Both the position numbers and the translations under genes were made by a program. DNA of 32,631 bases, from the IMG/VR virus record IMGVR_UViG_3300034064_001329, positions 1 through 32,631 of that record. One strand, 5' to 3'. Origin of the DNA: a virus. How positions within the stretch are numbered: the stretch's first letter is position 1; the number at the start of each line of letters is the position of its first letter. Of this stretch, positions 10,389-29,762 are shown one piece after another. The notes under the pieces were generated by a model. It saw only the letters and a program-made list of their open reading frames with translations. It had not been told where the DNA came from and searched no databases.

Positions 10389-10408
10389 TTCTCGATGCGG
10401 AGTTATCG

Positions 10409-10744
10409 ATGCTAACTAGGCGCGACAAAGAAGTCTTGAAGGCGATCCTGCTGCTCAGCAGTGCTCATGTCAACCCTGGTGTAAGGAGGATCGGCAAACT
10501 CACTTCTCCGCCGCTGTCTCACGCTCAAGTAGCGAAGGATGTTGAACGGTTGATCGAGAGAGGGTTCGTTCTGCGTGAGCCGAGAGATCGGGGCGAAGGC
10601 AGTTCGTTCAGACTGTCGCGGGAAGCTGTTGTACTGCTCAACGCCTATACCACCGAGCACAAGAAACCGCATATCTCCGAACTCGTATCGCGTCTGGAAG
10701 ATGCACCTGGCGACACCATCCCCATACGGTTCCGAGATCGGTGA
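10409..10744 (+). CDS. Winged-helix DNA-binding protein, 111 aa
   Basis: The sequence has the order expected of a winged helix: a first helix RRDKEVLKAILLLSSA, a turn, a recognition-type helix LSHAQVAKDVERLIERGFVL (residues 38-57), and a charged wing REPRDRGEGSSFRLSREA, followed by a short C-terminal helix. This resembles MarR/PadR-type regulators in miniature. It is the only plus-strand gene in the structural block, with its own leader and a GGAG site ten bases before ATG. It converges with the portal gene, whose stop lies eight bases past its own. It may control the divergent head-gene promoter. A moron-like acquired gene is an alternative view. Confidence 0.65.
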   Translation: MLTRRDKEVLKAILLLSSAHVNPGVRRIGKLTSPPLSHAQVAKDVERLIERGFVLREPRDRGEGSSFRLSREAVVLLNAYTTEHKKPHISELVSRLEDAPGDTIPIRFRDR

Positions 10745-10752
10745 GGCCAGGC

Positions 10753-13700: not shown

Positions 13701-13788
13701 AAGGTGCAGGTGCAGGCGGATCGCCTGCGATGGCCTTCCACAGCTTCGTTTCAGTCACGATCTTTCGGGCACGATCTTTCAAGGACAT
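10753..13788 (-). CDS. Portal protein fused to MuF-type minor head protein, 1011 aa
   Basis: The start is set at ATG 13788 (MSLKDRARK), four bases after GGAGG. A TTG further up lacks a ribosome site. Residues about 130-545 look like a DUF935/Mu gp29-type portal, including RSLGALATEIGQSGGSYNLM. Residues about 605-715 form an extra domain with GGTAVGVARARD, LSEETVRRMKAYFDRH and GRVAWDLWGGDAARGW. Residues about 740-1011 are MuF-like, ending with DRATCSNCSALDG (near 950) and NACRCIYVY (near 992), the Cys motif of SPP1 gp7/Mu F proteins. Portal forms the 12-subunit DNA gate, and MuF proteins enter the head in few copies. Fusion would place a MuF domain on every portal subunit unless it is cleaved, perhaps by the Mu I-like protease. 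Confidence 0.85.
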   Translation of the reverse strand: MSLKDRARKIVTETKLWKAIAGDPPAPAPSQPAPAQSARLNGWDPTMYRTMVDDSRMYRDSSRKSEDSVKSEVLLVQSSGSPVSLRNRMPGSMGRYLTVVADVAEYDVKQGLSGTVTAGGLPQVENKQQLKPLLARGLTYDQGEFERMARSNPVARNAIRATVERVAQASEYYAAPDVDWDALVYAPGLDATTRAVLSQKAKESTVRAAEILNLEWYHNPDVDPSQIIREQAYAMVPGFVLHEFGIDPRLQGRRRTTFVEHRAQSSVLRWLWDQKERWCGIVQNASGSPGLLADIPITGVTVQGMPVIDSRKLLLVTNQRIGLNLEGLSDLRAAWYASQGKTEWFVSALMHRRKWGNGFPVFRMDADSAKAKGVSDSIAQAAKDFFYSGQAYMGLPPGVTMEMMEFDSDTGFIAAMEYFDKELLRSLGALATEIGQSGGSYNLMEVQQQERLRQLQGYASQIKSSRRPWIEAACQMLVGDLAVLPELRIDGIMTRSDSEVIDVWKQVAEIRTMTRATGELVYTDSEIQTLCDTVGVPFTSDVQAKDAIAIDDAKSEASQVQSVALEQVANDVVESGMDESAAEAPFDDLPAPSEGMVQQKNRAKNLGDVDTKPTTGMAKVAKRALEWRREYGRGGTAVGVARARDIANRKNLSEETVRRMKAYFDRHQGDAKAEGFEAGEDGFPSNGRVAWDLWGGDAARGWSERKVAEFNSIRGKSKSLASAAGITTAAKKPDITIIGRDGAKFQTHRPLLPIEQSVAWATLYLLTDAENTDLMRELQKQMKKHSAEFANRASASIKAGKVPEAGIVYDFTPDAYEAILLHRLSQWAKMSRRQMMEEVRNQVGSKFIPDKEEAVYAAAVEDVIETNAAILAKRLNDDWNTRLLQAATTAALGTRSVAEVAALAIPKETYGRYTMATVNTVNNLVREQTARDFAPKIKKVTYSAIMDRATCSNCSALDGSDFDYGSPEYIKYRPPLFDCKSTLGPYGNACRCIYVYSFAEAVEDEDTAAPI

Positions 13789-13850
13789 ACGGCCTCCAGA
13801 GGCTGTCGGTATGGTCAACAGCCATCCTCCTAGCAAGTGGACACTCCGCG

Positions 13851-13883
13851 GTCACTTGGAAACAGCCTGTTCTGTCAAGTGAC
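13851..13883. repeat. Inverted repeat between terminase and portal genes
   Basis: GTCACTTG (13851-13858) and CAAGTGAC (13876-13883) are perfect arms around a 17-base loop in which CTGT and ACAG (or AACAG and CTGTT) can pair further. There is no T-run on either strand, so it is not a standard terminator. It lies in the 110-base gap after the large terminase gene. It may be an mRNA processing hairpin, a protein-binding site or part of a packaging signal. Confidence 0.5.
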
Positions 13884-13898
13884 TTGAGTGCCAGGCCG

Positions 13899-15296
13899 TC
13901 ACAGGCCGTTCGTTGCCTTCCATGACCGCTGCATCTGCATCAACAGGTCTGCTGACTTCTCCACGAACCGCTCGACGCCTCCAGAGATCAATGGCTCGTC
14001 TCGGATATCTACTCCCAGAAGGTGCGGAAGGACGAACCGAGCTCCGTGGACCAGAGCGTCGATACGGCCTGGCGACCATCTCTTCTGTCCAGAAGGTGGA
14101 TCGGGGTTCCAGGTTGTCATCTCGTCCTCGAGTGATTCCAGCCTGCCTACATGATGGAACAGGCCTCGTCGGTACAGTGCTGCGACTGGAACCGCTCTCG
14201 ATGCCTTGTCGCCGACTGCACGAACCAGAGTTACGGGAACCCTGGGGTCAACCGATGCGATGGTGAGGCGGACCATCTCGCCACCTTGATTCGCCTCGGC
14301 GACGATGTTGCCTGCACCGAGCCTCCAATACAGGTCAACAGCCTTCCTCGCCCACTCGTTCGGAGCCATACGGCCGGAGGCATCCTCTACGACATAGGCC
14401 TCGGAGTGCGATGCACCTATCGCAACGATACCAGCTTCGTCGCTCGTTTCTTGACCAGACAGCGACGGATCAATCGAGATGCAGAACCTGTCAAGACGCG
14501 GTGCCTCCAATACACGGTTCCTGTCGATCTCTTCGAAAGACCAGAGCGATCCAGAGGAATCGTCGACATACTCGCCGAGCAAGAACCTGGCTCGCCGCCT
14601 GCTGTCCATCGATTCCAGTTCTGCGATGTAGTCTGCAGGCAACAGCGGATTGTCCTTCGGGTTGACCTGCTCAGCCAGATACCACTCTGGACGCAACAGC
14701 GGTCCTCCCGAAGGGTTCTTGCCGCGAAGAAACTCCTCGGCTGTCCAGTGCTTCGTTCCAGAGGGATTGAGGTCATAGAACATACGAACAGGCATCGGCC
14801 GACCGTTCGCATACTTGGACACCTGCGATAGCCGTGACCGAACCAGGGGAACCACCGACCAGGGGATTTGACTGCACTCGTTGAGGTAGATGGAGGTGAA
14901 CTCCAGTCCGAGCAGCTTCTCGACCCGCTGTTCGTTGTCGAGGCCGGAGAAGATGATCTCAGAGCCGTTCGGGAAGCGAGCCACCTGGTCCGAGTGATTT
15001 ACGATGGCTTTGATCTGCGGGAAGCGATGCCGCATCACATCGGCAAAGGTCGTGAGCAGGATGGTCATCCGCACTGCGTTATGATGCAGCCGAGCCACCA
15101 GGTGAGCCGACCTCGGCGCGAGCAGTGCTCTCAAGATCAGCGAGTAGATGATCATGTATGTCTTGCCAGATCGGGAGCCTCCGTAGATCAATACATGCCG
15201 AGGGTTCTTCTCGGCGATCTTGTCCCAGACCATCATCTGTCGGCGGTTCCAGTCTGGCGCGGCTGCACCTTCGTCGACGCCTGGCGAAGCTGTCAT
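13899..15296 (-). CDS. terL: Terminase large subunit, 465 aa
   Basis: The ATPase/nuclease motor that cuts and packages DNA. The N-terminal ATPase has Walker A GGSRSGKT (39-46), Walker B SIYLNE (135-140) and the coupling segment YDLNPSG (174-180). The C-terminal RNase H-like nuclease has acidic residues in ISIDPSLSG (D276), IVAEANQGGE (E334) and GRIDALVHG (D413). All main motifs are intact and the length is normal for the family (about 450-550 aa). The ATG at 15296 overlaps the stop of the small subunit (ATGA), so the two are co-translated. It is followed by the 13851-13883 inverted repeat and the portal gene. Confidence 0.95.
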   Translation of the reverse strand: MTASPGVDEGAAAPDWNRRQMMVWDKIAEKNPRHVLIYGGSRSGKTYMIIYSLILRALLAPRSAHLVARLHHNAVRMTILLTTFADVMRHRFPQIKAIVNHSDQVARFPNGSEIIFSGLDNEQRVEKLLGLEFTSIYLNECSQIPWSVVPLVRSRLSQVSKYANGRPMPVRMFYDLNPSGTKHWTAEEFLRGKNPSGGPLLRPEWYLAEQVNPKDNPLLPADYIAELESMDSRRRARFLLGEYVDDSSGSLWSFEEIDRNRVLEAPRLDRFCISIDPSLSGQETSDEAGIVAIGASHSEAYVVEDASGRMAPNEWARKAVDLYWRLGAGNIVAEANQGGEMVRLTIASVDPRVPVTLVRAVGDKASRAVPVAALYRRGLFHHVGRLESLEDEMTTWNPDPPSGQKRWSPGRIDALVHGARFVLPHLLGVDIRDEPLISGGVERFVEKSADLLMQMQRSWKATNGL

Positions 15297-15841
15297 GTCT
15301 GCGACTGGGAGAAGGTGATCACGATGGGAGTTTCCTTCTCACCGTTGCCTGCTGCCATCCCGCCGAGTTGAACCTTCTTGGCAGGTGTCTCGTCGTACTC
15401 TTCGCGAAGCTGCTTCGTGAGGACTTCCAACAGTCTCGCTACTTCCCCTGGCGAGGCCTGGGCGAAGTCGATGTTCATCATCTCGGTTCCTGCCTTCCGC
15501 AGTGTGTTCGCGAGGACTGCTCTGCGAAGCTTCCTGCTCTTGACCCGTTCTTCCAGTTCAGCCTCGAGGTCGCGCCGCTCGATGTAGGTATCGAGAGCGA
15601 GTGCTCGCTCCTTCCAGCGATGCTTCTGCGAGACCGTGTACCATTGACCAGGGGCTCCATCGGGCTTCTTTTTGCCTGTGAAGCGAGCGTGAGCCTCTCG
15701 GACGGTTCTGTCTACGGGCGGGATGTCTCGATAGCACTGGAACCATACGTAGTGTCGATCTGGCTCAGCCTTCTGCCGCTCCCACGGACGACCCTCATCG
15801 AACAGGCCATCGTCGTCTTTCTGCTTCTTCTTGCGGAACAT
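15293..15841 (-). CDS. terS: Terminase small subunit, 182 aa
   Basis: The DNA-recognition part of the packaging motor. The start is placed at ATG 15841 (MFRKKKQKDDDG), just after GGAGG. A longer frame to 16030 would run through the control region. An N-terminal Lys/Asp-rich tail precedes a helix-turn-helix-like segment WFQCYRDIPPVDRTVREAHARF, then WKERALALDTYIERRDLE. The YRD...R.....A and W..RA...D pattern is typical of many phage small terminases. A long charged coiled-coil-like helix (residues 95-130) fits the oligomerisation domain. It is the first gene of the leftward operon and is translationally coupled to the large subunit. Confidence 0.75.
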   Translation of the reverse strand: MFRKKKQKDDDGLFDEGRPWERQKAEPDRHYVWFQCYRDIPPVDRTVREAHARFTGKKKPDGAPGQWYTVSQKHRWKERALALDTYIERRDLEAELEERVKSRKLRRAVLANTLRKAGTEMMNIDFAQASPGEVARLLEVLTKQLREEYDETPAKKVQLGGMAAGNGEKETPIVITFSQSQT

Positions 15842-15946
15842 GATCCTCCGGAGTGCTGCTGCTGACAGTGCAACGGTAGAAGATGCTGCCAGAAGTGTCC
15901 AGAGGTGCAGCCTGCACCGATGCCAGGTGCAGCTTCTGCTGGGATG

Positions 15947-16067
15947 CAAAAGAATACTGAGCATCGGGCCTGGCAAGAAAGTTCCCGACTTCACGAGTTT
16001 TGGAGGAGATAGAGGGTGAAGATTCATCAATGAAACGCTTGCATTGTAAAGCGTGGCGGTTTATCAT
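15947..16067 (+). repeat. Duplicated control block, copy 1
   Basis: This stretch shares ordered identical pieces with 19617-19736: CAAAAGAATACT, AGAAAGTTCCCGAC (14 of 14), GTTTTGGAG, and GAAAC followed by the promoter core. The spacers between the pieces differ. It lies between the divergent terminase and early operons. The shared order suggests a copied regulatory module with several protein-binding sites, not just a promoter. Confidence 0.6.
16039..16067 (+). promoter_or_regulatory. Early promoter A
   Basis: TTGCAT (-35), a 17-base spacer TGTAAAGCGTGGCGGTT and TATCAT (-10), 43 bases before the first early gene. The spacer is nearly the same as in promoters B and C and holds an imperfect inverted repeat TAAAGCG/CGGTTTA. 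Confidence 0.75.
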
Positions 16068-18202: not shown

Positions 18203-19615
18203 ATGGTCAGTCACAACGAGCGTATCACTTCCCTCGCCAACATCGTCATCGCTCCAGAGCAGACGGTCGGCGCTTCCCTCAACTGGAGCATCCCCGAAGG
18301 TGTCAAACTCCCCGCTGCCCTGGTGAAGCAGGCGGTGACCGACAACAGTCTGCCCGAGAATGTCTTCGGACAGCCGACTGAACCGCTCTGGCAGTTCAAG
18401 TTCTGGCACTACCGAGCCAGGGTTCCAGGTCGTCGTCGCAACGAGCGCGAGATCATCAGTGCTCCTGCTCGGCACCAGTCCAACGACCTGGTGTCGTTCG
18501 TCTACTCGGTGAACATCGACAGCACCGAGGACGAGAAGGGTCGCTTGATCCCTGTCGGCAGCGTCACCTTCAACATCGCCGACGAGCAGTTCTGGTGGAG
18601 ATTCGATGTCGGTGCGATGCAGCCTGGCGAGACCGACAGCGACTACCTCGATCGCGCTCTGGCAGCTCACGACCCTGCTCACGGCATCGAGGACAAGGAC
18701 TTGGCATCCTTCCGCTCGTACGCCATCCATACGCTGAACGATGTCGCGATCTTCGCACAAGAGCCGTACTACAATGGCAACAGCATTCGCGATGGAGTGA
18801 GCCACTACTTCCGCAAGGTAGGCGGCTACTCCATGAGTGCTCGCGGAGGCTTCTGGTACCTGCCTCGCATCGAGGGTCAGCCCGACAAGTGTCCGTTGAC
18901 CAGGGCCGAGGCGATGATGGCTGCTGTCGAGACAGCTTCAGAGAAGAAGTGCAGATTCTTCCGCCTCACGATGCCGAAGGATGCCTCTACGACTGAGATG
19001 GCGTCCGAGTTCGTGTCGTCGGGACTGGCTGAGCGGATCAACGACATCCGCGAGAAGGTTGCCAAGATTGAAGAGGTCACTCGCAAAGGGCAGCACTCCA
19101 CCAGGTTGGAGGAGCTTGCCTCCATCCGACAGGACATCGCACTGTACCGCGACATCCTCGGCCTGTTGGATACCGACCTGCTGCAGAGTGCCGACGAGGT
19201 CACCACGATGATCCAAGAGCAGGTCAGTCGCTTTGAACTGCCGAGCGGTGACTTGCCTGCACCTGAGAAGCCTGCCCGAACTTCCACCAGGGGCGACCGC
19301 ACTGCGAGGCCGGCCTCCGAAGCACCTGGCGAAGCACCTGTCGCCGATGCAGCCTGCACCATCTTCACCGCCGAAGAAGTGGAACAGGCTGCAGACACGA
19401 TGGCAGGCTTCGCGATGGACATCGCAGCAGGCGAGATCATCACCTACGAGTTCCCTGGTAAGGGAGCGATCTCGCTCGAAGAGGACTTCTCGTTCGGCTA
19501 CCTCTGGACCCTGTCTTTGACAGCTTCTGGCTCGGAGGTCGTCACAGGGTTCTCGGACAGCATCGGCGATGCGATCCGCGATGCAGCGCAACAGGCCTCG
19601 GCCGCTGCCAAGTAG
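18203..19615 (+). CDS. Large early protein, 470 aa, unknown
   Basis: The start is ATG 18203 (MVSHNERITSLANIVIAPEQ) after GCAAGGACAAGAA. A longer frame from 18029 lies inside the previous gene. The N-terminal 200 residues are mixed alpha/beta with RRNEREIISAPARHQSND. A central segment has GNSIRDGVSHYFRKVGGYSMSARGGFWYLP, resembling the GG-(F/V)-(W/Y)-(F/L)-(V/L)-P motif of some uncharacterised phage proteins such as DUF6744, a tentative match. A coiled-coil-like region (about 295-400) follows, then a Pro/Ala linker and a C-terminal domain with FAMDIAAGEIITYEFPGKGAISL. No enzyme motif seen. It is the largest unknown in the early cluster and precedes the second copy of the control block. Confidence 0.7.
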   Translation: MVSHNERITSLANIVIAPEQTVGASLNWSIPEGVKLPAALVKQAVTDNSLPENVFGQPTEPLWQFKFWHYRARVPGRRRNEREIISAPARHQSNDLVSFVYSVNIDSTEDEKGRLIPVGSVTFNIADEQFWWRFDVGAMQPGETDSDYLDRALAAHDPAHGIEDKDLASFRSYAIHTLNDVAIFAQEPYYNGNSIRDGVSHYFRKVGGYSMSARGGFWYLPRIEGQPDKCPLTRAEAMMAAVETASEKKCRFFRLTMPKDASTTEMASEFVSSGLAERINDIREKVAKIEEVTRKGQHSTRLEELASIRQDIALYRDILGLLDTDLLQSADEVTTMIQEQVSRFELPSGDLPAPEKPARTSTRGDRTARPASEAPGEAPVADAACTIFTAEEVEQAADTMAGFAMDIAAGEIITYEFPGKGAISLEEDFSFGYLWTLSLTASGSEVVTGFSDSIGDAIRDAAQQASAAAK

Positions 19616-19616
19616 C

Positions 19617-19736
19617 CAAAAGAATACTTCAAGAGAAAGTTCCCGACGATCTCGTTTGCTCCTCTGTTTTGGAGAGCTACGCGCCTACCATCCTGCCGAA
19701 GAAACACTTGCATAGTAAAGCGGTGCGCTTTATAAT
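19617..19736 (+). repeat. Duplicated control block, copy 2
   Basis: This stretch starts two bases after the 470-residue gene's stop and repeats the ordered pieces of 15947-16067. It fills the space up to promoter C. No terminator with a clear stem and T-run was found here, so readthrough from the upstream transcript is likely. Confidence 0.6.
19708..19736 (+). promoter_or_regulatory. Early promoter C with operator-like palindrome
   Basis: TTGCAT, 17-base spacer AGTAAAGCGGTGCGCTT, then a perfect TATAAT. TAAAGCG-GTG-CGCTTTA is a perfect 7-3-7 inverted repeat filling the spacer and touching the -10, so a protein bound there would block RNA polymerase. It is the best match of the three copies. 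The next start codon is 57 bases on. Confidence 0.8.
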
Positions 19737-19792
19737 GCTTCTATCAGGCAGTCACGGTGACCACCTGGTCAACATCGCACAAGGACAAGACA

Positions 19793-19996
19793 ATGAACAG
19801 CATCAACGAAACCGCCAACCTTCCCGCCACTCTGCTCGCCACGATCGCCCGTCTCGAGAAGGCAGTCGAGAATCACTCAGCCGCTGCTGCTGCTGCTACT
19901 CACGCCGAGGACCGCGCCTGGCATTCGTTCTGCGAACTTGAGGCACTTCGCCTCCTTGACCTTCGCCGCCGCTTCTACCTCACCGTCACGCTCTAA
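19793..19996 (+). CDS. Small early protein, 67 aa, unknown
   Basis: The ATG at 19793 (MNSINETANLPATLLATIAR) follows GCACAAGGACAAGACA. A start at 19757 in the same frame lacks a ribosome site. The protein is helical, with an Ala run (AAAAAATHAED) and an Arg/Leu-rich C-terminus LRLLDLRRRFYLTVTL. No family recognised. It is the first gene under promoter C. Confidence 0.65.
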   Translation: MNSINETANLPATLLATIARLEKAVENHSAAAAAATHAEDRAWHSFCELEALRLLDLRRRFYLTVTL

Positions 19997-20031
19997 TCCA
20001 ACTCCCCCCCCTGTCACGCAAGGACAAGACA

Positions 20032-20508
20032 ATGGATACCGTCAACGACACCGTCAACATCGCCAACATCGAATCCAACAGCTTCTCGGCAGAGCAGCTC
20101 GCTTACATCGCAGAGGAGAAGGAAAGGGCCGACCGCTGGAACCATCCCGATGCTGTCGCCGCTCGCCAGGCCGAGCAGGATGCTGAGAAGGCAAAGGATG
20201 AGGCAGAGCGCAAGGCAAAGCGTAAGGAGGCTCGCGCCGCTCGCAAGGCTCGCAATCGCGGCGATGATGGCCGTTACCAGAAGCCGACCGCACTCGAGCA
20301 GTTTCACATCAAGATGATGGCAGCATACTACAACGACAGCCTTCCTACCTGGGTCGACACTCGCGCCGCTGTTCGCGTGGATGTCGTCCACCTGGTGGAC
20401 TGCACCTTCACGATGTCGAGGGAGTGTGAGCCTGTCAGCCTCGACAGCATCGAGATCATCACGAACGCCATCTGTGCAAAGTACGGCATCTCCCTCGCAC
20501 TCGCCTAG
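20032..20508 (+). CDS. Early protein with charged helix, 158 aa, unknown
   Basis: The ATG at 20032 is preceded by GCAAGGACAAGACA and a run of seven Cs. Residues 45-80 are an extremely charged Lys/Arg/Glu/Ala helix (AEKAKDEAERKAKRKEARAA) that may bind nucleic acid or form a coiled coil. The C-terminal part (residues 95-158) looks like a small alpha/beta domain, with VRVDVVHLVDCTFTMSRECE and SIEIITNAICAKYGI. No known family. It is co-transcribed with the 67-residue gene. Confidence 0.65.
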   Translation: MDTVNDTVNIANIESNSFSAEQLAYIAEEKERADRWNHPDAVAARQAEQDAEKAKDEAERKAKRKEARAARKARNRGDDGRYQKPTALEQFHIKMMAAYYNDSLPTWVDTRAAVRVDVVHLVDCTFTMSRECEPVSLDSIEIITNAICAKYGISLALA

Positions 20509-20520
20509 CCGAGCGCAACA

Positions 20521-20564
20521 GTCGCAGGGTCCGGCCTGCATCTGGCTCGCAACCAGACTGCGAC
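20521..20564 (+). other. Structured RNA element in a C-rich spacer
   Basis: GTCGCAG (20521-20527) pairs with CTGCGAC (20558-20564). Inside and directly next to the right arm, TCTGG and CCAGA close a CTCGCAA loop. A 13-base bulge lies on the left. No T-run follows, only a tract of seven Cs, so it is not a typical terminator. The spacer 20509-20612 has no gene. Confidence 0.45.
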
Positions 20565-20612
20565 ACTCTCCCCCCCGCTGCCTCAGCAGCACAACCGACA
20601 GGATAGAAGCTC

Positions 20613-21014
20613 ATGACCTACCGCGACCCCCTTTCCCTGCAGTCCCTTCTGTTCACCGCCGTCCGCGCACTCGGAGGCACCTGGCATCCTGCTCCCTCTG
20701 CCATCGGCGACATCGCCATCGCTGCTGACGAGAGCCAGTCGCTCGATGATGGCAACGAGATGAAGCTTCGCATCGTGATCACCGCTGTCGGCATCGACAC
20801 TGACAGCCCGAAGCTGCACCTTTCTCACTTCGTCAGCGTGAGGATGCCCACTCACCGTGAATCCATTGCCCCGTCGATGGCCTGCTGCTCCGTCTGGCCT
20901 TGTGCATTCGACAGCGTAGACAGCATCATCGAGGCCTACGATGCGGCGGCTGAGTATGTCAACGACAGGAAGGCAACGATGATCCTCGCTGTCGAGGCCA
21001 GTCGCGGCATCTAA
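20613..21014 (+). CDS. Early protein, 133 aa, unknown
   Basis: The ATG at 20613 follows an AGGATAG site, slightly unlike the leader of its neighbours. The product is mixed alpha/beta: an N-terminal LQSLLFTAVRALGGTWHPAPS, a beta-rich centre (MKLRIVITAVGIDTDSPKLHLSHFVSVRM), and a C-terminal helix SIIEAYDAAAEYVNDRKATM. Two Cys in ACCSVWPC form a CC...C pattern but no clear metal site. No family recognised. It directly precedes the MoxR-VWA pair and might be a substrate or partner. Confidence 0.65.
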   Translation: MTYRDPLSLQSLLFTAVRALGGTWHPAPSAIGDIAIAADESQSLDDGNEMKLRIVITAVGIDTDSPKLHLSHFVSVRMPTHRESIAPSMACCSVWPCAFDSVDSIIEAYDAAAEYVNDRKATMILAVEASRGI

Positions 21015-21043
21015 CCTGGCTGAACCCTTCCCTCACCCTCCCC

Positions 21044-21071
21044 GCCTGGCGAACTTCCCCATACGCCAGGC
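21044..21071 (+). other. Strong hairpin in the leader of the AAA+ gene
   Basis: GCCTGGCG (21044-21051) and CGCCAGGC (21064-21071) form a perfect 8-bp stem with a 12-base loop AACTTCCCCATA. The hairpin ends six bases before ACAAGGA, the ribosome site of the MoxR gene. Without a T-run it is better read as a leader structure that may set translation or mRNA stability. Confidence 0.5.
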
Positions 21072-21089
21072 CCGACACAAGGACACCCG

Positions 21090-22355
21090 ATGAAGACAGC
21101 ACTCGAAAGACTCCGCGAAATCTCAGCCGACCTCAACCGCCGCTTCCCCTGTCGCAAAGACGAGATCATGGGGACGATGCTCTGCCTGCTCACCGGCGAA
21201 CTCAAGATCGATATCGGCACCAGAGGCGATGGCAAGACCGCTCTTGCTAGGGCACTCAACGACTACTTCACCGATGCCTCGTTCTTCATGGCACCGATGT
21301 CCAAGAGCACGACTGTCGAGGACCTGTTCGGCGGACCCGACCTCGTTGCGCTGCAGAACAACGAGTTCCGCCGAGCGACGAAAGGTCGCGCCGCTGCTAC
21401 TCACATCGTGTTCTTTGACGAGATGTTCAAAGGTTCGGAAGCTGTCGCCCAGTCGCTGCTCAACCCGCTGTCGGAGCGCATCTTCGAAGGTGTCGAGATG
21501 CCGCTCATCATCGCCACCTGTGCGAGTAACGAACTGCCCTACGAGATCCGTGGACAGAAGGATGGCAAGGTTCTCCCTCCGAGGCCTGGCGAGGACAGCC
21601 TGATGCCGCTCATGGATCGGTTCATCCTCAAGTATGTCGTTCAGACGATTGAGCCTGGTACCCCAGAGTGGAAGCAGGTTGTCCATCAGCGCGTCAACCG
21701 CACCATCGGCACCGATGCCCGTATCAGCGTGGAAGAGATCGCACCGCTTCGCCAGGCCATCTGGAGTGTGAAGCTGTCCGAGGCTGTCGAGGACAAGGTT
21801 GACGAGCTTGCCATCAACCTCAAGAGTGGTGTCGGGCCGAGCAATCGCAAGGTGGATGTCTCCGTCCGCACCTTCGGAAAGGTGGGAACCTTGCTCCGAG
21901 CGTATGCAGCCTGGCTCGGCGACACCGAGGTCTCCAAGAAGCACTTCGAGGTCTTGGAGCATGCTCTGTGGAACACTCCCGATCAGCGGGAAGTCGTGCG
22001 CGAGGCCATCATCAACATCGGGAGTGTTGTCGAGCGGGATTGCGCGTCGACGGTTCGCTCCGTTCTTGACCTGGTCGTCGCCCTCGAATCGAACAGGCTC
22101 AGCCTCAAAGATGGGAAGCTGGAGCAGTCGCCGACAGAGGTCGCACCTGCACTCCGCATCGGCTGTCACGAAGCTGTTATCAAGCGGATCGACAGCGAGG
22201 TCTTTGAACTTCAGTCTGGCCTGCCTCCCCAGATGGACGCCGACGACTACGCTTGCCTGCAGGTTGCGCTCACCACGATGCGCGACACCAGGGCAGTCGT
22301 CCTGCGGAACATGACGATGCGCGTCACTGCTGCACCTGGCCGAATTCTGCGATAG
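21090..22355 (+). CDS. MoxR/RavA-type AAA+ ATPase, 421 aa
   Basis: Members act as hexameric chaperone-like ATPases working with VWA partners. Visible motifs are a Walker A GTRGDGKT (43-50), Walker B IVFFDE (106-111), sensor 1 in ATCASNE (Asn147), an arginine-finger-like MDRF (175-178), and a sensor-2-like region SVRTFGKVGTLLRAYAAW near residue 260. The SLLNPLSERIFEG stretch after Walker B matches the MoxR consensus. The Walker A loop has Thr-Arg in place of the usual Pro-Pro. After the AAA+ core a long helical C-terminal part (290-421) is unlike standard RavA domains to my eye. The start at 21090 follows ACACAAGGACACCCG. The next gene, 48 bases on, encodes the VWA protein. Confidence 0.9.
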   Translation: MKTALERLREISADLNRRFPCRKDEIMGTMLCLLTGELKIDIGTRGDGKTALARALNDYFTDASFFMAPMSKSTTVEDLFGGPDLVALQNNEFRRATKGRAAATHIVFFDEMFKGSEAVAQSLLNPLSERIFEGVEMPLIIATCASNELPYEIRGQKDGKVLPPRPGEDSLMPLMDRFILKYVVQTIEPGTPEWKQVVHQRVNRTIGTDARISVEEIAPLRQAIWSVKLSEAVEDKVDELAINLKSGVGPSNRKVDVSVRTFGKVGTLLRAYAAWLGDTEVSKKHFEVLEHALWNTPDQREVVREAIINIGSVVERDCASTVRSVLDLVVALESNRLSLKDGKLEQSPTEVAPALRIGCHEAVIKRIDSEVFELQSGLPPQMDADDYACLQVALTTMRDTRAVVLRNMTMRVTAAPGRILR

Positions 22356-22365
22356 ACCGCTTTAC
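22356..22365 (-). promoter_or_regulatory. Lone copy of the operator half-site
   Basis: The minus strand reads GTAAAGCGGT, identical to the spacer core of promoters B and C. It lies right after the AAA+ gene's stop and 39 bases before the VWA start codon. No convincing -10 is in phase with a -35 here, so it may be a regulator site without a promoter. Confidence 0.35.
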
Positions 22366-22403
22366 ATACACGGCGCAACAGTTTAGAAGGAAGGCAAGGA
22401 CGC

Positions 22404-23969
22404 ATGAAACTCAAAGATCACAACATACGGCTCGACCTGTCGGCCATCACCCGCAACCGCTACGGACGAGCTCGCGACACAATGGCTCCGCTCCAGGCGG
22501 CGGAGCAGGCTGTCACGGACCTGCTCGGCAGCGGAGGCCCATACCTCACCCGCGATCTGTGGTCGTCGTTCTACGCTCCAGAGAGCAAGGTTGACAGCAG
22601 CACTGACGGTTCCAACCTGCACCGCCTGGCGGACTACCTGCTCCAAACTGTGAACGAGGCCGGCATCCTCGCTGATGTCCACGACAAGACCCAGGGCAGC
22701 ACGATGTCCAGCGTTGAGGCCTGCCTCGCAGCGATGGAAGTTCTCAAGGAGATGCCGCTGCCAGAGCCTCCGCAAGAAGAGGCACAAGTCACGATGCAGC
22801 GCGACAACGGTGATACCCAGGTGATCACCGCAAGCGACGACAAGGTGTCTGTCTCGATGACCACAGCTTCTGGAAGCACTGTCACCAAGACAGTCGCCGC
22901 GAAGGATGGCGAGTCTGGCCGCTCGATGATGGACAAGATCATCGAGAAGCAGCGCGACAAGGGCTACCGCGTCACCGAAATGAAGTCGGTTGACGAGGCC
23001 TTCGACGCTCGGCTCGGTAATGCTCTGGATGCCATCGAGAAGGACCAGGCTCTGTCCGCTAGGCTCCGCCAGGTTGCCTCTGACAGCTTCGCCGAAGCAC
23101 TCGAGGACATCGCATCGCAGGATGCAGCATTCGTGATGGCTTACGGCAAGGATGCAGGCAAGGAAGCAAGCCGAGACCCCTCGACTGAGGACCTTGCTCT
23201 GGTGCAGCAGTTGAGCACTCCGAACCTTCGGAGTTTCATCGCCAAGATCGGTCGGTTCTTGGACGCATTCGGCTCGTCAAGCATCCCCGACAAGGTTCGG
23301 GGAGCCTTCGCCGTGGACGGCATCGAGCTCACCGACCAGGTCAGCCGCCTTACGCCGACAGAGGTGGCGATGTTCACTGTCCCAGGCCTGCGAGCGTATC
23401 AAACTGTTCGCCTCGTTACGCGCCAGACATTCGGCTACCGCAAGACACAGCTCGGCACGAAGCAGTCTGGACCCTTCCTCGTCTCGCTCGACACAAGCGA
23501 ATCGATGTCGTGGCCCGACCGCGACTGGCCGACACCTGCTGCCTATGCAGCAGCAGCAGCACTCGCAGCAGCAGAAGAGGGTCGCAAGGTGTCGGTAGTC
23601 ACATTCTCGACCGCGACGCACGACCTGCAGGCCGATCTTGAGACACCTGGCGGAAGGGTCGCTTTCATCAAGCGCATGATGAGCATTCGGCCTGCTCACG
23701 GAACAGACTTCAACGGAACGGTGGATGCAGCAGCGAAGCTGGATGCCGATGCTGATGTCCTGCTGATCTCGGATGGCGATGGGCCTCTTGATCAAGACCA
23801 GGCTCGCTCGGTGTTCGCCTCTCGCAGACTGCACTACCTTGTCGTCGGAGCAGGCTCTGGCAAGAACTCGACACTCATGGACCTCGCTGGAGAGCGAGCA
23901 GTGTCGGTGACTTCACTCAACGATGAGCAGGCTGCAATCCTCGCAGCTTCGTCCATCATCACCCGATAG
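22404..23969 (+). CDS. VWA-domain (MIDAS) protein, ViaA-like, 521 aa
   Basis: The C-terminal VWA domain (about 355-521) carries all metal-ion-dependent adhesion site residues: DTSESMS (D363, S365, S367), T434 in GTDF, and D457 in LISDGDG. The N-terminal 340 residues are helical, with a beta-rich linker at about 125-170 that includes SGSTVTKTV. This architecture, with the VWA at the C-terminus, is that of ViaA/CoxE/CbbO-type partners of MoxR ATPases, and the MoxR gene is immediately upstream. The MIDAS would bind Mg2+ and a target acidic residue, linking the ATPase to a substrate. The ATG at 22404 follows GGCAAGGACGC. The target is not apparent from the sequence. Confidence 0.9.
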   Translation: MKLKDHNIRLDLSAITRNRYGRARDTMAPLQAAEQAVTDLLGSGGPYLTRDLWSSFYAPESKVDSSTDGSNLHRLADYLLQTVNEAGILADVHDKTQGSTMSSVEACLAAMEVLKEMPLPEPPQEEAQVTMQRDNGDTQVITASDDKVSVSMTTASGSTVTKTVAAKDGESGRSMMDKIIEKQRDKGYRVTEMKSVDEAFDARLGNALDAIEKDQALSARLRQVASDSFAEALEDIASQDAAFVMAYGKDAGKEASRDPSTEDLALVQQLSTPNLRSFIAKIGRFLDAFGSSSIPDKVRGAFAVDGIELTDQVSRLTPTEVAMFTVPGLRAYQTVRLVTRQTFGYRKTQLGTKQSGPFLVSLDTSESMSWPDRDWPTPAAYAAAAALAAAEEGRKVSVVTFSTATHDLQADLETPGGRVAFIKRMMSIRPAHGTDFNGTVDAAAKLDADADVLLISDGDGPLDQDQARSVFASRRLHYLVVGAGSGKNSTLMDLAGERAVSVTSLNDEQAAILAASSIITR

Positions 23970-23977: not shown

Positions 23978-24382
23978 ATGAATACGCCAGAAGCTTCCAA
24001 CAGTTCCAAGAGATACGGAGACACCTTTCAACCGACACGAGCTCTGGCGATGCGCCGCGCTCAACTCGGCGTCACGATCACATCGCTTGGCAAGGCATCG
24101 GGAATGTCAAAACAGCATCTCGCCCAGGTGATCTCGGAGCGGAGGCCTGTCAGCCTTCCAATGATTCGACGGATGGCGATGCTGTTGCACTGCCCTCCCG
24201 AACTGCTGATATCTGAGGACCCGACAGGTGTCATCGGGTTCCCGACACCTCCGGCCGCCTGGCTCGATGTGATCGAGGCCAATCGCGGAACGCTCGGCTT
24301 CAACGACATCACCAGAGTTCCCGCCTGGTCGTTCTACGAAGCACTGCTGCACGAAACACTCTCACAACAGAACACGAAGTAA
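23978..24382 (+). CDS. XRE/Cro-CI-type HTH regulator, 134 aa
   Basis: Residues 25-75 form a typical XRE helix-turn-helix: ALAMRRAQLGVTITSLGKAS, with the turn and recognition helix GMSKQHLAQVISERRPVSLP, then MIRRMAMLLHCPPELL. The C-terminal 50 residues (PTGVIGFPTPPAAWLD onward) are not a LexA-like protease domain, so self-cleavage is not expected. The ATG at 23978 follows AGGAGACAAG, eight bases after the VWA stop. A role as repressor of the promoter A-C set is plausible, because these promoters carry operator-like repeats and few other DNA-binding genes lie in the early block, but it is unproven. Confidence 0.8.
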   Translation: MNTPEASNSSKRYGDTFQPTRALAMRRAQLGVTITSLGKASGMSKQHLAQVISERRPVSLPMIRRMAMLLHCPPELLISEDPTGVIGFPTPPAAWLDVIEANRGTLGFNDITRVPAWSFYEALLHETLSQQNTK

Positions 24383-24427: not shown

Positions 24428-25621
24428 ATGAAGAAACTACCTTCCCTCACGAACAGTGAGCGGTCGTCGGCAGCCTGCCCTCAAAGATGGCTGCTGCGAT
24501 ACGGCCTCGGCCTCCGCAGCACTGTTACCTCGCCTGCCATCCATGTCGGCTCGTTCGTTCACGCTGCTATCGAGCGGCTGAACAATGTCGGGCCTCGGCT
24601 CTGGACCAGGCATTCCGCACGACTGGCGATTGAGCAGGCGAAGCAGCAGGCCATCACAGATGCTCAGGCAATCTTGGCAGCTTCTTCTTCGATGGTAGCA
24701 GGCCTATCCGATGCGGAGCAGTCTGCTATCGATTGCGCTGCCATCGCCTGCACCATCATGGACGGATACATCGCCAGGTGGAGGTCCGACGAGGACTGGG
24801 TCGTACACGCCAACGAGAAGGCATTCGAGTACAGGCTCCGAGACCCGCGAACAGGCAAACTCGCGCCGACACTCGCAGCAGGCAAGATCGACCGCATCAT
24901 CGAGAAGAACGGTCAGTTCTGGATCGTTGAGACAAAGACGACCGCTCTGCCTGTTGCCGAATGGGTGGAGCGCAATCGCCGTAGTCCGCAAGTTCTGACA
25001 TACGCTGCTGCTGCACGACACCTCGGCTTCCCTGTGGTCGGCGTGATCTTCGACCTGGTCAACTCCAAGCCTAGTCGCCGTGGAAGCGAGCTCGCAGTGT
25101 TGAAGGATGGCAGCAGGCTCGCCAAGCCATCGGGCCTACCGTACTGCACCGCTACTGAGTTTCGCGCCGCTGTCATGAGCGTCCACGGAAGCTTGGAGAA
25201 TGGCCTGGCTACGGTGGACTGGTACCGAGAGACGCTGCTCTCTCTGGAGCACCGCGACGAGAGCGGATTCTGGTATCACCGAGAGGCCTGCTACTTCGGC
25301 CCTGGCGAGATCGACCGAGTTCGGGAAGAAATCTTTGCAGCTTCCAAACGGGTCGCCGCCTGGCGGAAACGCATCGAGAAGGAAGATGCCAAGTACGACG
25401 ACCCCAGGTCTCCGGATGCCATCATCGGCATACTGAGCGCAACAGTCGCAGACTTCCCGCGAGAAGCTTCCCTCTGTTGGCAATACAACAGGCTATGCAG
25501 TTACGCTCCCATCTGCTCGACGCACCATCCCGCAGACTTGATCCCATACGGCCGGAGCACTTCTGCTTACGGTCACGACGAACTCCACTCTGCGGAAGAT
25601 GCTTCCGCGCTCGATAAGTAA
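24428..25621 (+). CDS. PD-(D/E)XK nuclease, Cas4/RecB-like, likely Fe-S, 397 aa
   Basis: The exonuclease core has H45 in VGSFVHAAIE, D155 in AGKIDRII, the E-x-K pair E168/K170 in IVETKTT, and Q188/Y192 in SPQVLTYAAAARH, matching RecB-family motifs. C17 near the N-terminus and C350, C357 and C363 near the C-terminus match the layout of a 4Fe-4S cluster in AddB/Cas4-type nucleases, although the Cys spacing (x6, x5) is unusual. It would process DNA ends in phage recombination. It precedes a RecA-like ATPase and an SSB-like gene, so the three probably act together. The ATG at 24428 follows AAGAAGGACGCATC. Confidence 0.85.
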   Translation: MKKLPSLTNSERSSAACPQRWLLRYGLGLRSTVTSPAIHVGSFVHAAIERLNNVGPRLWTRHSARLAIEQAKQQAITDAQAILAASSSMVAGLSDAEQSAIDCAAIACTIMDGYIARWRSDEDWVVHANEKAFEYRLRDPRTGKLAPTLAAGKIDRIIEKNGQFWIVETKTTALPVAEWVERNRRSPQVLTYAAAARHLGFPVVGVIFDLVNSKPSRRGSELAVLKDGSRLAKPSGLPYCTATEFRAAVMSVHGSLENGLATVDWYRETLLSLEHRDESGFWYHREACYFGPGEIDRVREEIFAASKRVAAWRKRIEKEDAKYDDPRSPDAIIGILSATVADFPREASLCWQYNRLCSYAPICSTHHPADLIPYGRSTSAYGHDELHSAEDASALDK

Positions 25622-25630: not shown

Positions 25631-26623
25631 ATGAGGTTACTGACAGCACGACAGACATACGAGAAGAAGCCGTTCTTGAAGGTTGCGGTGATGGGTCAGT
25701 CTGGTGCAGGCAAGACGCACTTCGCCGCTCGTTCGCCCAGGCCGCTGATCCTGCTCACCGAGGTGCAGGCTCTGCCGAGCATCATGATGGCGAACCCAGA
25801 AGCCATCGTCCTGCCGATCACCAGGTGGAACGACTTTCGGGAGGCCTTCAACGCCATCAAGATGGGTCGGCCGACCACGATCACCGTCAACGGAGAGGAA
25901 CAGCCTGCTCTGGAGGTCACCCTCGGCGGTGATACGGTTGCGGTGCAGACGCTCGTTCTCGACACGATGACCGACCTCCAGCGACTGGCCTTCGACAGCA
26001 TGATCAAGGCAGACGGCCCGAACGGGATGGACAGGTTCGACTTCCAGACAGCTTCGCTGAACCTGTCGATTGACAAGCATGGAGTACTCCACTCCGCCGC
26101 CGAGGAGATCTGGCGACAGCAGCGAGCACTCCAGATCAACACAGTGTTCCTGTTTCTCACCCGCGATGTTCAAGACGATGCAGGCATCAAACAGACCCTG
26201 CCGATGCTGACGGGTAGCAAGCTCCCGTACTCGATGGGGCAATACTTCAACGCATCTGGTCTCGCCCAGGTTCGCCGCTCGGATGGCGGTTCTCTGCAGC
26301 ACTTGATTCGATGGAGCACTCCGTCCGCTGCTGCCATCACGAAGCCTGGTCCTGGATGGCCGAATGTGACCGTGAACAGTGCGACACCTGGCGAGACTTC
26401 GCTTGGCTCCCTGCTTCTGTTCACCTTCCCCGATCTGTCGGTGGCTCATGAGCCTCACGACAGTGCCGAGTTCGTTTCCCGCGCTGTTGTCGCGCCTGCA
26501 TCTTCCGCTTCCGCTGCTGCTCCACAGGCTGCTGCTCACGCTGCTGCACCTGTCGCCCAGGCCGCACCTACCTCCACCATCATCGCTGGATCCTCCAGCA
26601 ACATCACCCGCCGTCGGCGGTAA
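25631..26623 (+). CDS. Sak4-like RecA-family ATPase, 330 aa
   Basis: The N-terminal part has Walker A GQSGAGKT (22-29) and Walker B TLVLDTMTDL (D111), followed by a helical region and FLFLTRDVQDDAG, as in phage Sak4/AAA_24 single-strand annealing proteins. The C-terminal 60 residues are a flexible Ala/Pro/Ser tail ending in RRRR. Sak4 proteins bind ssDNA and promote annealing, usually beside a single-strand binding protein and a nuclease, as here. The ATG at 25631 lies nine bases after the nuclease stop. An anti-sense frame covering the gene is an artefact of base composition. Confidence 0.75.
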   Translation: MRLLTARQTYEKKPFLKVAVMGQSGAGKTHFAARSPRPLILLTEVQALPSIMMANPEAIVLPITRWNDFREAFNAIKMGRPTTITVNGEEQPALEVTLGGDTVAVQTLVLDTMTDLQRLAFDSMIKADGPNGMDRFDFQTASLNLSIDKHGVLHSAAEEIWRQQRALQINTVFLFLTRDVQDDAGIKQTLPMLTGSKLPYSMGQYFNASGLAQVRRSDGGSLQHLIRWSTPSAAAITKPGPGWPNVTVNSATPGETSLGSLLLFTFPDLSVAHEPHDSAEFVSRAVVAPASSASAAAPQAAAHAAAPVAQAAPTSTIIAGSSSNITRRRR

Positions 26624-26632: not shown

Positions 26633-27211
26633 ATGTTCAACCCTTTCGATAACTCCTACGACAAGCTCAATCTGGACTCGTCTCCGTTCCCTGAGGGGAG
26701 GCACCTGGTCTTCATCAGCGAAGCTGGCCTCCACATCTCGAAGAACGGTAAGCCTGCCATCGAGGTGACCTTCGATGTCCTCGACCCGAACAGCGCGAGC
26801 CACGGGAAGCGGCTTCGCTGGGTGAAGTACTGGACGAGCACTCCCTCGCTCTGGCGTCTCGCGAACCTTTGCCGCGCTTGCCACACGAAGATCGGCCCGT
26901 TCGACATGAGCAGCGAGGTCTCGATCAAAGAGGCCCTGCTCGACCAGATCCTCGCCATCACGGTCACTCACAAGAAGGAGGACTACAATGGCAAGGAGAA
27001 GCTTCGCATCGAGCCAGAGAAGCACGAGCAGATCACGCCCGACGAGGCTGCTCGGCTCCGCGAAGAGTACGGCGACACGATGCTTCCGCCGCTGTCCGAG
27101 GCCGACGACGATGCACCTGCTCACGATGCCGGCCCTGGCTACGGCGGAGTGACGAGCAAGTCTGCTGCACCTGGTAACGGTTTCAGCGATGACGATGGGA
27201 TCCCGTTCTAA
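26633..27211 (+). CDS. SSB-like protein (DUF669-type), 192 aa
   Basis: The first 130 residues look like an OB-fold-type beta protein in the style of DUF669: PEGRHLVFISEAGLHISKNG, then AIEVTFDVLDPNSASHGKRL. The C-terminal tail is acidic and Gly-rich and ends with FSDDDGIPF, closely like the DDDIPF tail of bacterial SSBs that recruits partner proteins. It would coat single-stranded DNA during phage replication and recombination. It follows the Sak4-like gene by nine bases, and its stop overlaps the next start (TAATG). Confidence 0.75.
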   Translation: MFNPFDNSYDKLNLDSSPFPEGRHLVFISEAGLHISKNGKPAIEVTFDVLDPNSASHGKRLRWVKYWTSTPSLWRLANLCRACHTKIGPFDMSSEVSIKEALLDQILAITVTHKKEDYNGKEKLRIEPEKHEQITPDEAARLREEYGDTMLPPLSEADDDAPAHDAGPGYGGVTSKSAAPGNGFSDDDGIPF

Positions 27212-27777
27212 TGACGACTGACCCTCGCATCAATCGCATCCGAGCCAGGCTTCTCTGGATGATGGCGAAGTCCGCATTGTCGGACGATGGCGCAACAGCC
27301 ATCATCGCTGTCAAGAGTTGCTATGCAGCACTCGAGATCGGGAGCGAGGCGGAACTGTGCGAGGTCACCCGATGCCTGCCATCGGGGATCTCTGTCGAGA
27401 GCGAAGCTGGTAACCTGCTCGTAAGGTTCGCTCTGGATAGAGATGATGTCACGGAGGTTGCCATCTACTGGAGGGCAAAGACAGGCCGCGACAAGAGGAC
27501 GCAGTTCACGGTGAAGAGGCTGTCGTTGATCCGAGCCAGGTTGCGCGAAGGTTGGACAGTGCAAGACTGCAAGAAGGCGGTCGACGCCTGCACCGCTTCG
27601 GACTTCCACAATGGCAAGAACGACAACGGCGTCCGATACAACGACATCGCTCACATCTTCAGTCCAGAACGGTTCGAAAGATGGATGTCGGCAAAGAAAC
27701 CGCTGTCGGTAACAGACACCACCGATGTGACTGAGCAGACGATTCGCAGGCGGTCGCAAGAAAGGAACGGACGATGA
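27211..27777 (+). CDS. Replication organiser-like protein, 188 aa
   Basis: The C-terminal part (about 100-150) has LSLIRARLREGWTVQDCKKA and SPERFERWM, resembling the conserved C-terminus of phage replication proteins of the Phg_2220_C type. The N-terminal part is helical (RARLLWMMAKSAL). Such proteins bind the origin or load the helicase. It is translationally coupled to both neighbours: it starts on the SSB stop (TAATG) and its stop overlaps the primase-helicase start (ATGA). No origin repeats were recognised in the gene. The family match is by eye. Confidence 0.6.
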   Translation: MTTDPRINRIRARLLWMMAKSALSDDGATAIIAVKSCYAALEIGSEAELCEVTRCLPSGISVESEAGNLLVRFALDRDDVTEVAIYWRAKTGRDKRTQFTVKRLSLIRARLREGWTVQDCKKAVDACTASDFHNGKNDNGVRYNDIAHIFSPERFERWMSAKKPLSVTDTTDVTEQTIRRRSQERNGR

Positions 27778-29762
27778 GGGAAACGCCGACACAATTCCTG
27801 TCGAGGAATGGCATCAAATACGACGAGAGCGGTGCAGGCCGAGAGATAGTGATGGACTGCCCTTCTTGCGGGAAGAAGGGTCACTGCTTCGTCAACTCGG
27901 CCACTTGGCTATGGAACTGCAAACGATGCGATGCTCGCGGTAACGAAGCTTCGTTGAAGGTGTCGCTCGGCCTGCAATACGATGTCTCAGCCGTTTCGGA
28001 TAAAGGTTCCGTGACAAGGGTCGCGGATGATGCCTTCGCGAGACAGCTTCTGGATGCCAGGGGCAAGAGCAGCGTCGAGACCTGGGCGAACAATCTGATG
28101 CACCATCCATCGGCGGCGAGGGCGCGAAAGTATCTGCAGGACAGAGGCCTGTCGGCAGACTTGTGTCACAAGTTCTGCGTAGGATGGTGCGCGAACCCAG
28201 ACGGAACGACCCAGACACAATCACGAAGGGTCGTGGCAGGTGCAGCACCAGAAGATCTCGGACCAGGTTGGATCACGCTGCCATCGTTTGCTCAGCATCA
28301 GAACGGGAAGCCTGTCGTGTCGTCGGTGTCGGTTGTCAAACTTCGCAGCGTACCTCCGAGCGACCGAGCCTTCCGCCGATTGGAAGGTGGCAAGAGCATC
28401 CTCTTCGCCCCTTGTGGCATCGACCCCACATCGACGCTGCTGATCGTTGGAGGCGAGATAGATGCCTTGTCGTGCGTAGCAGCAGGTTGGAACAATGTCG
28501 CATCGTCAACAGTCGGAGAGCCGAACTGGAACGAGGAATCGACAGAAGCTGTGGAGGCCTGTGAGGACATCGTTATCGTCTACGACAACGATGATGCAGG
28601 TCGCAAAGGTGCAGCCTCACTCGCAGAACGGCTCGGCTCGCACCGCTGTCGCATCGGCACCTGGCCGAACAGCGTCAAAGACGCGAACGAGGCACTTGTC
28701 GCACTCGGGGCAGCATTCTCGCCAGGCATCATCGTTGAGAGTGCGAAGCATTCGGGCGGCGATGCTGTCGTCAAAGTCGACGACTTACGGAGTGAGTATC
28801 TTTCTGAGTTGAGGGGTTCATCGCCGAGAGGTGTCTCGTCTGGATGGCCGGACCTAGACAGCCTGGTCGGTGGCATTCGGTTCGGTGAAGTGACGCTCGT
28901 AACAGGCGATACGGCGAGCGGTAAGAGCACCTTCGCATCGCAGTTCGCTCTGAACATGGCGAAGTACGGTCATCGCACGCTGTTCTGCCCGTTTGAACTT
29001 GGAGCTCGCCGTCAACTCGCGAAATGGGTCCGCCAAGAGGGAGGATGCCCTCCAGATACGATGGACGACCAGGCCGTCAACGCAGTCATCGACAGGTTGC
29101 AACGGCTCCCACTGTTCATGCTTCGCAGGTACGGCTCAATCCGACTGGAGGCGATGCGGAACACGATGACGCACTGCATACGGAGGCTCGGCGTGAAGTT
29201 CATCGTTCTCGACCACCTTCACTTCATGATTCAAGAAGGTCCAGAAGAACGGATGGAGCTGGATTCGATGATGAAGATGATCGCCGAGACCGCTGTTGAC
29301 CACAAGGTTCACATCGTCGTTGTCGCTCACCCCAGGCAGCATCATTCGTCCAACGATACGCATCGCGACAACCGCATCATCCAGGCCAGCGATCTCAAGG
29401 GTTCGGCAGGATTGAAGCAGCTCAGCGACAACATCTGGTCGGTCTGGAGGCCTCGCAAGGCAGACAGAAGCGACCTGGCCGAAGGTTCGGAGAGCGGTCG
29501 ATCTGTCGTGTATGTCCTCAAGAACCGCGACGACTACGGCAACGAAGGTTCGGTCGCATTCAAGTTCGGGCTACGGAGTGCTCGGTTTGAGCCACCCGAC
29601 GAAGAGAGGCAAGCTTCTGTCAGCACTGCACCGCCAGAAGCGAAGCAGGCCTCCAGAGAACCTGCAGAGCGGAGGCTCAGAAGGGTCCGCGCTGCCGAAC
29701 CCGTTAGCAGCAGCACAGTACCCAACCCTCGTCACTGGACAGAGGTAGCAAAGGAGGATTGA
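27774..29762 (+). CDS. Primase-helicase (T7 gp4/Twinkle-like), 662 aa
   Basis: A full replicative primase-helicase. The zinc finger has C29, C32, C49 and C52 (CPSC...CKRC). The Toprim primase core has GGEID (E228) and YDNDDAG (D271, D273), then a KDANE motif at 302-306. After a linker the DnaB-type helicase has Walker A GDTASGKS (378-385), Walker B VLDHLHF (D480) and the LKGSAGLKQLSDN segment (541-553). The C-terminal 70 residues are a disordered Pro/Ser/Arg tail. All catalytic motifs are present. The ATG at 27774 overlaps the previous stop. It would unwind DNA and make primers at the phage fork. Confidence 0.92.
   Translation: MRETPTQFLSRNGIKYDESGAGREIVMDCPSCGKKGHCFVNSATWLWNCKRCDARGNEASLKVSLGLQYDVSAVSDKGSVTRVADDAFARQLLDARGKSSVETWANNLMHHPSAARARKYLQDRGLSADLCHKFCVGWCANPDGTTQTQSRRVVAGAAPEDLGPGWITLPSFAQHQNGKPVVSSVSVVKLRSVPPSDRAFRRLEGGKSILFAPCGIDPTSTLLIVGGEIDALSCVAAGWNNVASSTVGEPNWNEESTEAVEACEDIVIVYDNDDAGRKGAASLAERLGSHRCRIGTWPNSVKDANEALVALGAAFSPGIIVESAKHSGGDAVVKVDDLRSEYLSELRGSSPRGVSSGWPDLDSLVGGIRFGEVTLVTGDTASGKSTFASQFALNMAKYGHRTLFCPFELGARRQLAKWVRQEGGCPPDTMDDQAVNAVIDRLQRLPLFMLRRYGSIRLEAMRNTMTHCIRRLGVKFIVLDHLHFMIQEGPEERMELDSMMKMIAETAVDHKVHIVVVAHPRQHHSSNDTHRDNRIIQASDLKGSAGLKQLSDNIWSVWRPRKADRSDLAEGSESGRSVVYVLKNRDDYGNEGSVAFKFGLRSARFEPPDEERQASVSTAPPEAKQASREPAERRLRRVRAAEPVSSSTVPNPRHWTEVAKED

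Follow-up and report, generated by a model that had tools for sequence, protein, structure and literature searches.

Introduction

Pairs of a MoxR ATPase and a VWA protein are AAA+ chaperones of wide distribution; few of their targets are known, and the viral pairs have been read as metalloprotein chaperones or virion chaperones. The window analysed here, an IMG/VR viral contig of 32,631 bases, encodes such a pair, and the question is what a phage does with it. The initial annotation described the two genes as a RavA/ViaA-like pair with no obvious substrate gene nearby, and proposed that the pair remodels a host complex, counters a defence or helps assembly. Two unknown genes of 133 and 470 residues were named as candidate partners. 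In this paper, the pair and its surroundings are compared with those of related phages, plasmids and bacterial genomes. The comparison makes it very probable that a DUF6744-like protein, a RavA-type MoxR and a VWA protein form a ternary module of phages, plasmids and other mobile replicons.

Arrangement of the locus

The head, tail and terminase genes of the window (39–16030) run leftward, and the early genes run rightward from about 17.4 kb (Table 1). A complete MoxR gene and a complete VWA gene are adjacent in this early/replication operon, and the XRE regulator follows them. The open reading frames are located exactly where the initial annotation had placed them, with the exception of the 470-residue gene, which actually starts at 18203. 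The DUF6744-like, MoxR and VWA genes lie close together at 18203–23969, all on the + strand, and small genes separate the DUF6744-like gene from MoxR. The three genes are likewise grouped in the related contig G005. A purine-rich Shine-Dalgarno-like sequence precedes the ATG of both the MoxR gene and the VWA gene.

Table 1. Features of the early region of the window
Feature	Position	Strand	Remarks
470-aa DUF6744-like protein, proposed third component	18203..19615	+	profile matches; kept in G005, L008 and L009
158-aa gene, charged residues abundant	20032..20508	+	without counterpart in relative G005
133-aa gene 5' of MoxR	20613..21014	+	no family match; without counterpart in G005
MoxR-family AAA+ ATPase, RavA-like AAA module and lid, 421 aa	21090..22355	+	
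VWA protein, intact MIDAS, putative co-chaperone, 521 aa	22404..23969	+	
XRE/HTH_3 regulator directly 3' of VWA	23978..24382	+	53% identity in G005
PD-(D/E)XK exonuclease	24428..25621	+	PF12705, phrog_1218
Sak4-like recombinase ATPase	25631..26623	+	phrog_124
Phage single-strand binding protein (SSB)	26633..27211	+	phrog_378
DNA primase/helicase	27774..29762	+	Toprim and DnaB_C

The sequence CAAGGACA is found 4–5 bases 5' of early-gene ATGs (window 18191, 19780, 20019 and 21078, also 16345 and 16823). It occurs eight times in the window against 1.1 expected, and none of 100 shuffles reaches as many. It looks like an extended ribosome-binding leader common to the early genes.

The MoxR and VWA proteins

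According to the profile search, the MoxR protein matches bpMoxR (PF20030, E=1.7e-18), AAA_5 (E=4.4e-12) and AAA_lid_8 (E=5.2e-8), all above the cut-offs. RavA is its only strong match among solved structures (profile E=1.9e-21). In the alignment, Walker A (GTRGDGKT), Walker B (VFFDE), the sensor-1 Asn and the arginine finger (DRF) are intact. Both the AAA+ core and the MoxR-type profile by which MoxR AAA+ ATPases are recognized are therefore present, and the bpMoxR match removes the doubt, raised in the initial annotation, that the first protein might not be of the MoxR class. The protein is not RavA proper. Its score of 70.8 bits does not reach the curated NCBIfam equivalog cut-off of 681, no LARA or other C-terminal RavA domain was detected in it, there is no Pfam match after residue 307 of 421, and in the tree described below it is placed away from the chromosomal RavA-like pairs. 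The label RavA/ViaA-like holds, as does the MoxR class, and RavA proper was dropped. An insert of 15–16 aa (RGQxxGKxLPxRxGEDSL) is located at residues ~153–168, between sensor 1 and the arginine finger; among 24 aligned MoxR proteins it is limited to the window lineage (the window and L011, the locus of G005). Among annotated phage genomes, the MoxR of Moorella phage MTATph1 is the closest by E-value (1e-21).

The VWA protein matches VWA_2 with E=7.7e-6 and 26.9 bits, just under the cut-off of 27. The ViaA model (E=3e-8, 33.3 bits) covers only residues 303–457, and its score is below the curated equivalog cut-off of 500. The VWA domain is located at the C-terminal end (residues ~355–460), with a long N-terminal region ahead of it. 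It is recognized by its MIDAS site (DTSES ... T ... SDGD), which is intact and shared with the L011 homologue, so that the motifs of both proteins are complete, as first described. A PDB sequence search with the VWA profile and a tblastn search of the VWA protein against phages gave no match. As to a beta-propeller fused to VWA, only a sub-threshold match outside the VWA part was observed (PF25292, 14.4 of 26.8 bits).

Conservation in related phages

A search with the terminase gave seven contigs at 65–79% identity, and only G005 (46,122 bases) is long. G005 keeps, in the order of the window, the 470-aa gene, MoxR, VWA, XRE, exonuclease, Sak4, SSB, primase-helicase and Dcm methylase. The identities to the window proteins are 40% for MoxR, 39% for VWA, 53% for XRE, 48% for the exonuclease, 76% for Sak4, 48% for SSB and 63% for the primase-helicase. 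Absence of joint conservation had been named in the initial annotation as a ground for refutation, and the neighbourhood comparison does not show it: the pair and its surroundings are syntenic in the sole related phage with enough sequence. The 470-aa gene is also retained near the terminase in the short contigs L008 and L009. G005 lacks counterparts of the 133-aa and 158-aa genes, and neither of these two is considered further as a partner; the suggestion that the 133-residue gene is one is not borne out. Scans of viral contigs with single MoxR, VWA and Moorella DUF6744 sequences and with alignments gave nothing beyond G005, and therefore the lineage of the window phage is sparsely sampled.

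The tape-measure-like gene of the window (982–3183) matches both ends of the G005 contig, so that G005 probably represents an entire genome that closes into a circle. About 14 kb of G005 is missing from the window.

The 470-aa protein is DUF6744-like

The 470-aa protein matches PF20529 (DUF6744) with E=1.3e-4 and 21.5 bits. As this is below the gathering score of 27 bits, the protein is named DUF6744-like and not a member of PF20529. An independent DUF6744 HMM was built from bacterial and Moorella proteins, with the window phage family left out. It matches the window protein and two relatives with E=1.6e-6, 5e-7 and 3e-7, and the window protein scores 27.9 bits against at most 3.7 bits in 1000 shuffles. 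This multi-member profile took over from an hhalign comparison of the 470-aa alignment with the single Moorella DUF6744 sequence, which was not significant (probability 1%). In the alignment of DUF6744 and 470-aa proteins, a motif of the type SGG-(V/F)-(Y/W)-(F/Y)-(V/I/L)-P is preserved, at an identity of the window protein to DUF6744 proteins of about 11–17%. The predicted models of a bacterial DUF6744 protein (pLDDT 90) and the window protein (pLDDT 75) have an identical order of secondary-structure elements, an agreement in topology that is not independent, as the alignment used for the window model contained DUF6744 rows. According to the profile match, the motif and the order of predicted elements, the 470-aa protein is a distant DUF6744 homologue. 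It has an extra C-terminal domain (residues ~390–470), which is absent from bacterial DUF6744 proteins. A fold search of the PDB with both models gave nothing at E<=0.001.

The three genes in other phages, plasmids and genomes

DUF6744 was detected in 6 of the 83 genomes of one class. In the same six genomes, and only there, bpMoxR scores 178–194 bits, at a distance of 0.2–1.9 kb from DUF6744 and in the same orientation; no other bpMoxR hit among the 83 exceeds 53 bits. DUF6744 is present in nine of 298 Paenibacillales genomes, and MoxR and VWA adjoin it in eight of the nine. At the ninth locus a different AAA+ protein is located in place of MoxR. The family is rare, with one case among 398 genomes of the phylum of G020, that one being the centre genome. 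Fourteen PLSDB plasmids have DUF6744, and in all seven that were inspected (from Brevibacillus, Alicyclobacillus, Pseudanabaena, Streptomyces and Nocardia) an AAA ATPase and a VWA-position gene adjoin it, the latter being annotated as 'hypothetical' in plasmids L213 and L215. In phage MTATph1, a DUF6744 protein (E=5.6e-61) is encoded just upstream of the MoxR–VWA pair. These comparisons show the three genes grouped repeatedly, in several phyla and also in a phage unrelated to that of the window. The 470-residue gene, kept with the pair in G005 and distantly related to a family that recurs beside MoxR–VWA, is thus upheld as a candidate partner, and is a better one than the 133-residue gene.

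In a tree of 56 MoxR proteins, the window and L011 group together (100/100). They are located within a group that contains all 18 trio loci, with support of 92/65, which is not strong, and the window branch is long. This group is apart from the chromosomal Bacteroidota and Paenibacillaceae pairs. It also contains seven loci scored as pairs, in one of which DUF6744 is cut by the contig end.

At the locus L201 (G795:C34, 8347–10951), DUF6744 is found without MoxR or VWA; its neighbours encode a classical AAA+ protein of 513 aa, SSB, a CHC2 primase-like protein and a Rep3 initiator. From this locus, the partner motor of DUF6744 may be exchangeable.

Neighbouring genes and the possible target

The neighbours of 18 trio clusters were compared with those of 37 clusters with MoxR and VWA only. 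In the stretches examined, SSB is present in 4/18 against 0/37, PD-(D/E)XK in 5/18 against 0/37 (two of the five being the window phage and L011), RadC in 4/18 against 1/37 and the clamp in 3/18 against 1/37. CHC2 primase is also commoner near the trio. No such replication neighbour is seen in the stretch examined for about half of the 18 clusters with the trio. The dnaN gene is near the trio in Fervidicola, in a gammaproteobacterial MAG and on Alicyclobacillus and Brevibacillus plasmids; on both Alicyclobacillus plasmids it immediately precedes DUF6744, and on one Brevibacillus plasmid it is located close by. Plasmids seldom have this gene, as just 203 of 72,556 records contain a dnaN homologue. 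In the window, the exonuclease, Sak4, SSB and primase-helicase genes follow the module, and a sliding clamp was not found. The exonuclease of the window shares only the PDDEXK_1 family with that of L204, and the sequences are not close.

The statement that no obvious substrate gene lies nearby needs correction, as the loci repeatedly have a DUF6744-like protein as third component and replication and recombination genes as neighbours. Judged from the neighbours, the target of the trio could be the DNA-replication/recombination apparatus of the element itself, to which we give somewhat less than an even chance. This target assignment is confounded, because any mobile replicon has replication genes as neighbours.

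Possible function of the module

Taken as a whole, we regard it as about an even bet that the trio is a ternary AAA+ system with which mobile replicons remodel protein complexes, probably those of their own replication and recombination. By analogy with the MoxR family, MoxR would form a hexamer and remodel a protein complex with ATP, and the VWA protein would dock the target via its MIDAS site and stimulate the MoxR ATPase. The constancy of the DUF6744-like protein suggests a dedicated adaptor or the primary client. As suggested by the neighbours, clamp, SSB, nuclease and primase-helicase assemblies may be put together, cleared or switched in the early phase of infection. A more specific proposal is tentative and somewhat unlikely: the trio would add a fifth, previously unreported member to the MoxR–vWA ternary systems, one confined to phages and large plasmids, whose motor and new-fold adaptor load, unload or clear clamp, SSB and nuclease complexes, favouring DNA replication of the element over that of the host.

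Three other explanations have to be weighed. The pair may be a captured cellular RavA–ViaA that remodels a metabolic or respiratory complex of the host (Ldc, Frd or complex I), with the 470-aa gene unrelated. The closest curated and solved relatives are indeed RavA and ViaA. We consider this explanation very improbable, in view of the equivalog scores (70.8 against 681 for RavA, 33 against 500 for ViaA), the undetected LARA domain, the grouping of the window with trio-type MoxRs in the tree, apart from the chromosomal pairs, and the 470-aa gene kept together with the pair in G005. A chaperone for virion assembly is suggested by Acidianus two-tailed virus (ATV), the only experimentally studied viral MoxR–VWA pair found. 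Its p618 is present in virions, is an ATPase, strongly binds the VWA protein p892 and is stimulated by it (PMC4124505), and assembly was suggested for the group 2.2 jumbo phages too (PMC7824862). However, the trio is present on plasmids, from which, phage-plasmids aside, no virions arise, and therefore virion assembly is unlikely as its general function. In the window the trio belongs to the early/replication operon, which diverges from the genes for head and tail, and p618 matches the window MoxR over just 33% of its length. The role in assembly put forward at first thus loses ground, and we hold it to be quite unlikely.

A role in counter-defence or conflict, in which a host system would be disarmed or regulated by the module, or the module would be a thresholding switch like the MoxR–vWA ternary conflict systems of multicellular bacteria, is also unlikely, if less so than assembly. 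Four predicted conflict systems are built around a MoxR–vWA core (PMC7159879), the trio has a patchy distribution and is mobile, and GmrSD-like or methylase genes are located at several trio loci. On the other hand, no meaningful PADLOC-DB match was obtained for MoxR, VWA, DUF6744 or the 470-aa protein, the third protein is one constant family and not a hypervariable effector, and VMAP, iSTAND, FtsH and a fused beta-propeller were not detected in the window proteins. The early suggestion of counter-defence therefore keeps only a small chance.

Comparison with known systems

Phage and viral MoxR–VWA pairs are already known, in ATV, 0305phi8-36, Hardycor1, CL131 and group 2.2 jumbo phages (PMC2147016, PMC7911831, PMC7824862, PMC4124505), and a phage MoxR has been described as well (PMC9964418). 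The new part is the third gene. The four MoxR–vWA ternary systems described have VMAP, iSTAND, FtsH or a beta-propeller, and none has DUF6744 (PMC7159879). In the literature search, no mention of DUF6744 was found, and such a three-protein machine of mobile DNA is apparently undescribed.

The closest counterparts are the plasmid or mobile DUF6744 loci (Alicyclobacillus NZ_CP066785, Brevibacillus NZ_CP034542) and MTATph1. As in the window, the three components are co-oriented and close together, the MoxR is of RavA type (360–430 aa), and replication genes are near several of the loci. The window differs in its very divergent DUF6744-like protein with the extra C-terminal domain, in the MoxR insert of 15–16 aa and in the small genes between the DUF6744-like gene and MoxR. 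E. coli RavA–ViaA shares the AAA+ MoxR module with AAA_lid_8 and the adjacent MIDAS VWA protein; the window pair, in contrast, has no detected LARA domain, scores below the curated cut-offs, and has the third gene and a replicative context. The conflict systems likewise combine a MoxR and vWA core with a dedicated third component, and their bpMoxR profile PF20030 matches the window MoxR, whereas in the window the third component is DUF6744-like, no effector modules are seen and the location is on a phage, as on plasmids for its relatives. ATV also encodes MoxR and VWA proteins, but p618 is a long-branch relative of 618 aa, the p618 and p892 genes are a few kb apart, and the role is in the tail; a DUF6744 search of the ATV record found none. 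In Aphanizomenon phage CL131 (L003, 758–5785), gp147–gp145 run from a RavA-like MoxR through a VWA-like protein to DNA polymerase III beta, which directly follows the pair. Upstream of the MoxR and VWA-like genes lies one for an LPD29 protein, of polyvalent-protein type, and no DUF6744 was found in the record.

The constant third protein gives a handle on MoxR–VWA, as a common function is predicted for replicons that need no virion. It belongs to a protein family with no detectable fold match in the PDB. If the target is the replisome, the module would be an overlooked AAA+ factor of mobile-element replication.

Two further cases were met in the searches. Records MT837553 and MT839075 (L004 and L005; 'Bacteriophage sp.' from human faeces) have RavA/ViaA-like genes beside housekeeping-like genes, as judged from the translations, and appear to be pieces of bacterial chromosomes. 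The haloarchaeal tailed virus HVTV-1 (L217) was not counted as a trio, as its CobS-like AAA protein, with a vWA gene, is ~15 kb away and is not RavA-like. Its gp25 (9815–10966) is an unannotated but clear DUF6744 protein (E=1.5e-24), and a structure match of DUF6744 to a 383-aa HVTV-1 protein (E=5e-16) fits gp25 by length. All eight records with a gp25-type DUF6744 also have a CobS-like AAA protein, distant in the genome.
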